The notes beneath the pieces are model-generated. The model saw nothing but the letters and a program-made list of their open reading frames with translations, ran no database searches and was not told where the DNA came from. A program made the position numbers and the translations under genes. A stretch of 41,118 nucleotides of DNA from assembly GCA_944322955.1 (NCBI GenBank), contig CALUQQ010000066.1, forward strand, positions 1-41,118, read 5' to 3'. This DNA comes from Candidatus Gastranaerophilales bacterium (lineage in GTDB: Bacteria > Cyanobacteriota > Vampirovibrionia > Gastranaerophilales > Gastranaerophilaceae). Positions within the stretch are counted from its first letter, which is position 1. Each line of letters starts with the position of its first letter. Of this stretch, positions 25,297 through 25,924 are shown in pieces.

Positions 25297-25530
25297 AGCA
25301 TCCCTCAAAAAAATTTTGCATGATTAAATTATTACATAAAAAAGTAGAAATATCAAAGGGTTGACAATTAAGTGAGGTTAAGATAAATTAAAAAAGCGGC
25401 GATGCTGCAGAGAAATTGACAATTAAATAAGGATTTCGGAGCCATACCGAGCCAGAGCAATCCTATGCCGAACATAGTGTGGCACCCTGCCGAACGAAAC
25501 GAAGCAGCGGCACTCGGCTGAACAAAACAA
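25297..25530. other. Intergenic region before tRNA-Leu with a GC-richer, structured part
   Basis: No convincing gene. TTGACAATTAA occurs twice (about 25361-25371 and 25418-25428). The first copy is a perfect -35 box with TAAATT 17 nt on, so it may drive tRNA-Leu. From about 25432 to 25525 the sequence is richer in G and C than its surroundings and holds partial inverted repeats (for example GTGTGGCAC, GCGGCAC). A 35-codon frame on the minus strand (25475-25368, beginning MFGIGLLWLGMAPKS) is present but has no ribosome-binding site that I can see. Confidence 0.45.
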
Positions 25531-25609
25531 GGGCATGTGGTGGAATGGTAGACACGCTAGTCTTAGGAACTAGTGCTAACGCGTGGGAGTTCGAGTCTCT
25601 TCATGCCCA
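25531..25609 (+). tRNA. tRNA-Leu (TAG anticodon), CCA not encoded
   Basis: Acceptor GGGCATG/CATGCCC, D arm with GGAATGGTAGACAC, anticodon arm CTAGT-CTTAGGA-ACTAG (anticodon TAG), a short class II variable arm (TGCTAACGCGT) and T arm GGGAG-TTCGAGT-CTCTT. Discriminator A is followed by TTA, so CCA must be added, unlike tRNA-Pro and tRNA-Val in this window. The last 16 nt (25594-25609) form part of a perfect 48-bp direct repeat with 25807-25854. Confidence 0.93.
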
Positions 25610-25611
25610 TT

Positions 25612-25646
25612 AACCAGCTCAGACATTAGTCTGGGCTGGTTTTTTA
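25612..25646 (+). terminator. Terminator of tRNA-Leu
   Basis: AACCAGC-T-CAGAC and GTCTG-G-GCTGGTT form a long imperfect stem with loop ATTA, followed by TTTTTTA. A second copy of the hairpin lies at 25825-25854 without the T run. Confidence 0.85.
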
Positions 25647-25673
25647 TATAAAAATTCAACGCAATAGAGACGA

Positions 25674-25772
25674 GAACTCCCTGCTAGGCGAAGCCTTGCC
25701 GGAGTTCAAGCGAGGAGCGAGCAGAGGGCGAAGGCTTGACGCCGATAATGGCATAGCCATTATAAGGCGGCA
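25674..25772. repeat. Cluster of inverted repeats between the tRNA-Leu direct repeats
   Basis: Three structures follow in series: GAACTCC/GGAGTTC (25674-25680/25701-25707) enclosing AGGC-GAA-GCCT (25686-25696); AAGCCTT/AAGGCTT (25691-25697/25731-25737), which competes with the first; and ATAATGGC-ATA-GCCATTAT (25745-25763), flanked by GCC and GGC. The stretch is GC-richer than the surroundings. It resembles a REP-type or small non-autonomous palindromic element, or a structured RNA. Confidence 0.6.
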
Positions 25773-25924
25773 AACGTAGTCCCGTTTAATGCGAGCGACT
25801 CAAGACAGTCTCTTCATGCCCATTAACCAGCTCAGACATTAGTCTGGGCTGGTTATTATAATTCAACAAAACCTGCAAAGCAGCAAAGCGACAGCTGATT
25901 TTAAAAAACCGGTGCAGGCAAAGC

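Follow-up and report, generated by a model that had tools for sequence, protein, structure and literature searches.

A small structured element, here called E, lies between an intact tRNA-Leu gene and an extra copy of that gene's 3' end, and it belongs to a family dispersed through the Gastranaerophilales. E is probably a non-autonomous, structure-dependent mobile palindromic element of about 80-100 bp, which enters loops and other tolerant sites in these bacteria; where it enters tRNA genes, the forms with a duplicated tRNA end would be those that survive. The observations behind this reading are the family itself, its covarying structure, the tail and the P1 stem that match the host RNA, the patchy presence of the units, and in-frame insertions set against empty homologues. 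The window, in what follows, is the whole stretch of 41,118 nucleotides that was analyzed.

The layout of the locus is given in Table 1. An earlier sequence-only reading had reported a perfect 48-bp repeat of the tRNA-Leu 3' end together with its terminator, and both points were borne out. The two copies, spaced by 213, are identical at 48 of 48 positions (98% over 51 bp); each consists of the final 16 nt of the tRNA, starting in the T-loop, and 32 nt of terminator hairpin. A chance origin of such a repeat in 41 kb is ruled out. Upstream of the tRNA gene are two repeats of the type TTGACAATTAA(G/A)T(G/A)AGG (25361-25377 and 25416-25432 of the window), which are possibly duplicated promoter parts.

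Table 1. Features at the tRNA-Leu locus, in window positions.
Feature	Position	Strand	Basis
GTGTGGCACCCTGCCGAACGAAACGA before the tRNA gene, probably a decayed copy of the D-loop family	25478..25510	+	Weak likeness to the ATGTGGTACTCTGCCGAACAAAACGA units that precede tRNA-Leu in relatives
Intact tRNA-Leu(TAG), host gene	25531..25609	+	ARAGORN; Rfam RF00005
Direct repeat copy 1: tRNA 3' end (25594-25609) and terminator hairpin (25612-25641), then T-run	25594..25641	+	Identical to 25807-25854
Left strand of P1, AGAGAC, which repeats the start of the tRNA tail in inverted form; complement GTCTCT at 25808-25813, inside repeat copy 2	25666..25671	+	Fold
P2 hairpin GAACTCC..GGAGTTC; right arm similar to 5' side of host T-stem	25674..25707	+	Fold
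Element E, one copy of the dispersed structured family	25710..25804	+	Covariance model R1 match, E value 8.7e-20; alignment; covariation
Conserved arms of E	about 25717..25733 and 25775..25796	+	Alignment A1
Variable inner hairpin of E	25741..25768	+	Alignment A1
Direct repeat copy 2: extra partial tRNA 3' end and terminator	25807..25854	+	Identical to copy 1

The 165 nt between the repeats (25642-25806) had been described as a gene-less palindrome. The absence of genes was confirmed: ARAGORN, Rfam and an examination of open reading frames detected no tRNA, Rfam RNA or plausible gene inside the segment. In the Rfam search of the locus at gathering score the tRNA was the sole match, and a low threshold also gave nothing significant over E. 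The segment is highly structured, with an RNA fold of -55.5 kcal/mol compared with -40.9 ± 3.8 in shuffled sequences (z = -3.8); the whole 264 nt including the repeats reaches z = -8.4. It folds less well as DNA (z about -3) than as RNA. However, it is not a single palindrome; the predicted fold is a three-way structure made of the P1 stem, the P2 hairpin and E.

When relatives were searched with the tRNA plus the element, the inner part matched many sites away from tRNA-Leu. The right-arm pattern AGWCMCGTTWAAYGCGAG occurs in at least 117 stretches of a public genome collection, nearly all of them labelled Candidatus Gastranaerophilales or Melainabacteria. Matches in Bradyrhizobium, in Terriglobia and at one further locus (L153) were set aside as chance pattern matches by their appearance, and a contig labelled Fusobacterium (L073), which holds a tRNA-Asp E unit of Gastranaerophilales type, is probably misbinned. 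Covariance model R1 found 10 copies in this genome at an E value of ≤0.001 and 13 at 0.01. Copy number in the relatives ranged from 0 to 49, with up to 49 in a congener and zero in some relatives that are at least 97% complete. In a sample of the phylum the model detected E in 116 of 292 genomes, all from the same family except one from the same order; the genomes are mostly MAGs, one per species, in which arrays break at contig ends. No record in the phage and plasmid collections matched the repeat unit of the window. The E pattern is present in seven viral contigs, one of which (L174) has a tRNA-linked unit, and two others (L170 and L173) show E-like tails. In L174 (IMGVR 3300032167_000393, positions 1-2700) the phage genes reach as far as an E unit whose tail matches tRNA-Val; it looks as if a prophage had inserted between tRNA-Val and this unit.

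E measures about 95 nt here and about 80-100 nt across the family. In an alignment of 52 diverse copies invariant arms flank a very variable inner hairpin. The stem covaries: 97.6% of cells are paired, as against 25-44% in slid controls, and 62 double changes were counted compared with 17.8 after shuffling (0 of 500), in an alignment of sequences found partly through their conserved arms. Examples are the A-U/U-A exchange at columns 14-85 (29/19) and the G-C/U-A exchange at columns 18-80 (42/10). Some G-U pairs are also part of the structure.

Where E adjoins a tRNA gene, it is nearly always lodged in an extra copy of the end of that gene. Among the matches listed, 37 of 122 public E copies have the 3' end of a tRNA or tmRNA gene on the same strand less than 300 nt before them; about 0.4% would be expected, assuming 45 tRNA genes in 1.7 Mb, and the copies are not independent. 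There are 45 distinct units at 22 RNA species (21 tRNAs and tmRNA), in which E is downstream of the intact gene; the functional tRNA gene thus stays whole. Three permutation tests, all of which ignore relatedness among the units, connect the flanks of E with the host RNA: the sequence after E is the host's own 3' end from the T-loop on (a match of 13.4 nt, compared with 4.4 nt for other isotypes; 0 of 2000), the bases before the T-loop GTTCGA, on the side of the P2 right arm, match the host T-stem (3.2 versus 2.3 of 6 in the 45 units; 0 of 2000), and the left parts of 40 units pair better with their own tail than with permuted tails (-10.6 versus -8.2 kcal/mol; 0 of 5000). Because tail, T-stem and left pairing all match the host, E lies in the T-loop of a partial extra tRNA copy, the tail of which is also present in inverted form. 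The direct repeat is 14-110 nt long across the units, follows the sequence of each host RNA and often includes the terminator.

A comparison of the tRNA-Leu loci of relatives, which the sequence-only reading had proposed, showed that the unit is patchily distributed. At the orthologous locus it is present in three genomes (G000, G009, G012), altered in three (G002, G010, G024) and absent from seven (G004-G008, G011, G013). E copies from different genomes resemble each other no more closely when they share the host RNA (0.68) than when their host RNAs differ (0.70), so descent is not simply vertical. Nearly the same core (96% identity) is found next to tRNA-Asp and away from tRNA genes, with other outer stems and tails in each setting. 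Tandem units are found at tRNA-Asn (L041), at tRNA-Ser (L044) and with a tRNA-Tyr-type tail (L139), and each of their copies carries E; a plain array of at least three tandem copies that lack cargo, as slippage would leave it, was not seen.

Outside tRNA genes, E occurs in frame in genes for UvrD, ValRS (ValS), a CCA-adding-type enzyme and a C5 methylase (Dcm), host families that were confirmed by Pfam. The UvrD copy is a 26-aa in-frame insertion, and homologues that are 85-94% identical are without it. These in-frame copies encode the peptide ADCE(L/Q)RA...DP(L/F)NASNQ or a close variant (also written ADCE..RA..DPxNASNQA) and have no flanking direct repeat. Other copies directly follow stop codons. 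One (L061) lies in a loop of RNase P RNA, between CAGAAATG and AGACTGCC, that carries several unrelated inserts of 50-120 nt in some sister species but none in others (L311-L318, L304, L307); in the congeners checked, none of the RNase P inserts is E except in L061. Some copies are nested within other palindromes. In one genome (G001, L253-L263) several E copies lie within a second palindrome, TTCACTTTTTCTTTTTGC..AAAGAAAAAGTGAAC, and have been amplified with it as a composite. A general rule that all non-tRNA copies sit in hairpin loops was rejected, as the excess is modest (-8.1 versus -7.06 ± 0.43 kcal/mol, 1 of 300).

A mirror-image family, CTCTGCCGA..hairpin..GAGAGG, occupies D-loops in the partial 5' copies that precede tRNA-Leu, tRNA-Val and tRNA-Met. 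We found it at eight loci (L003, L005, L009, L012, L014, L048, L098, L164), in tandem copies of up to four units (L003). From its sequence, the stretch upstream of tRNA-Leu listed in Table 1 is probably a decayed member.

We propose that E inserts, or is copied, into T-loops of tRNA and tmRNA genes, RNase P RNA, loops of palindromes, sites behind stop codons and in-frame sites of protein genes. Insertion into an essential tRNA gene would be lethal unless the same event, or one before it, had duplicated the 3' part of the gene, and hence duplicated forms alone would survive. The surviving product would be an intact tRNA followed by tail and terminator, P1, P2, E, and again tail and terminator; the direct repeats would then permit tandem growth and loss. 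We infer that E moves by a dedicated process, probably acting on a folded strand, and that survivorship is behind the duplication. Several points count against this explanation: the searches described below gave no mobilising enzyme, the genomes compared, one per species, showed no insertion or excision between strains, and the outer stems and P1 follow the host, for which an ordinary transposon gives no explanation. We give a minor share of belief to a more far-reaching reading. E would then represent a new class of minimal mobile element, able to recognise the universal T-loop (GTTCGA) and accompanied by a second family specific to the D-loop. It would rebuild its terminal stems via an RNA or single-strand intermediate to match the tRNA that it has entered, which would make every tRNA gene a safe target.

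Less probable still is an origin by local accidents of replication or template switching, in which inverted repeats at the tRNA arms provoke partial tandem duplications and the E-like palindromes are immobile by-products. The inverted copy of the tail in P1, the tandem arrays and the nesting of palindromes are all what such accidents would leave. However, they cannot make a conserved, covarying core that is common to unrelated loci and species. This contradicts the explanation for the E core; the duplication step could still arise in this way.

An RNA route is rather unlikely. According to it, E RNA or an E-tRNA chimera was joined to a pre-tRNA and copied back into DNA, bringing tail and terminator along. 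The covarying structure with its G-U pairs, the enrichment of structured RNA genes, including RNase P RNA and tmRNA, among the targets, and the frequent inclusion of the terminator in the repeat are consistent with this idea. Exact termination of the repeats at the transcript end, which was also considered, found no support: the repeat ends show no sharp clustering at the T-run. The copies after stop codons and in coding sequences also argue against an RNA route.

The sequence-only reading had pictured a minimal non-autonomous element mobilised by an integrase, the scar of a deleted island or an empty landing site. The non-autonomous part is in line with the dispersed family and its patchy presence at orthologous loci; neither an integrase nor an island scar nor an empty landing site found support. 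A relic of attachment sites, left either by a tyrosine integrase that inserted a small element at the T-loop or by deletion of an island between attL and attR, is very improbable. A repeat that runs from the T-loop past the tRNA 3' end is what att repeats can look like, and on one viral contig a phage adjoins an E unit with a tRNA-Val tail. However, one and the same core is found at 22 RNA genes with 22 different repeat sequences, repeat length is far from fixed, and the in-frame copies in protein genes have no repeats at all. Recombinase counts point the same way: this genome has one Xer-type tyrosine recombinase, E-free relatives carry as many recombinases as E-rich ones, and recombinase number does not track E copy number. 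In the 30-41 kb part of the window, Pfam and PHROGs searches of ten open reading frames each gave no recombinase. Neither the recombinase survey of this genome and its relatives nor six RAYT-like loci yielded a mobilising enzyme.

Slightly less credible still is a regulatory or decoy RNA module retained by selection at tRNA 3' ends; the conserved three-way structure, the host-matched stems and the many isotypes would suit it, but the unit is patchy at orthologous tRNAs, absent from some nearly complete relatives, not vertically inherited, positioned behind the terminator and also present in protein genes. The least probable is that E is a REPIN which a RAYT transposase moves in trans: RAYT-like Y1 proteins of about 180 aa do occur in several relatives (L324-L329), but E is absent near all six loci examined, at least four of these have a different REP, of the GTAGGTTGGG..CCCAACA type, directly upstream, and G001 has 31 E copies and no Y1 match.

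If E is the mobile palindromic element proposed above, essential single-copy tRNA genes can be colonised harmlessly by elements too small to encode anything. The 22 RNA species would then document numerous independent insertions in nature and allow the rule of targeting and the mechanism of copying to be worked out. It would also tie together RPE-like elements in proteins, hairpins nested in RNase P RNA and the question of why integration takes place at tRNA genes. In genomes of this sort, 'att repeats' beside tRNAs would be no sure sign of islands.

Several known systems resemble E in part. Integrative elements of the T-loop class that target tRNA genes are flanked by direct repeats that begin in the T-loop and cover the 3' end of the tRNA. 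The repeat of the E unit also begins there; however, this 213-bp unit has no integrase or cargo, its repeat varies in length with no fixed att core, and it has many targets. In the cyanobacteria, a sister lineage, small dispersed repeats and STRR of about 20-30 nt, or short tandem repeats, are nested in stem-loops of structured RNA genes, namely rnpB and tRNA-Leu introns. E shares this nesting and differs in its 80-100 nt length, its own covarying fold and the duplication of the tRNA tail. The P6b repeats of Nostoc trnL are an example of the cyanobacterial repeats (PMC4476775). REPINs and REPs with RAYT transposases are non-autonomous hairpin DNAs with dozens of copies (PMC3116915), as is E, but E is absent beside the RAYT genes examined, at least four of which come with a GTAG-type REP of their own, and it enters coding genes. 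Mitochondrial hairpin and double-hairpin elements (RHE) are mobile in intergenic and in coding or rRNA sites without flanking duplication, and an RNA route was suggested for Allomyces (PMC2800124). E is likewise a hairpin of intergenic and coding sites; RHE are organellar, and host-matched tRNA ends are not reported in that paper.

The closest known kind are the Rickettsia palindromic elements (RPE), palindromic repeats of about 100-150 bp with many copies, which enter intergenic spacers and also unrelated protein genes, where they keep the reading frame and encode a conserved peptide (PMC10969869, PMC1950309; Ogata 2000). With its 80-100 nt, its up to 49 copies per genome and its covarying stem, E behaves like them, and its core in frame in UvrD, ValRS, the CCA-type enzyme and Dcm with a conserved peptide, in RNase P RNA and in other palindromes points to mobile palindromic behaviour of the RPE type. 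Entry into partial tRNA and tmRNA ends with host-matched stems, in tandem units, differs from RPE; this tRNA arrangement looks unreported, as no description of it was found in the literature searched, which covers the field in part. Because of this difference, and because the likeness is one of description (size, copy number, in-frame insertion), we call E RPE-like and not an RPE.
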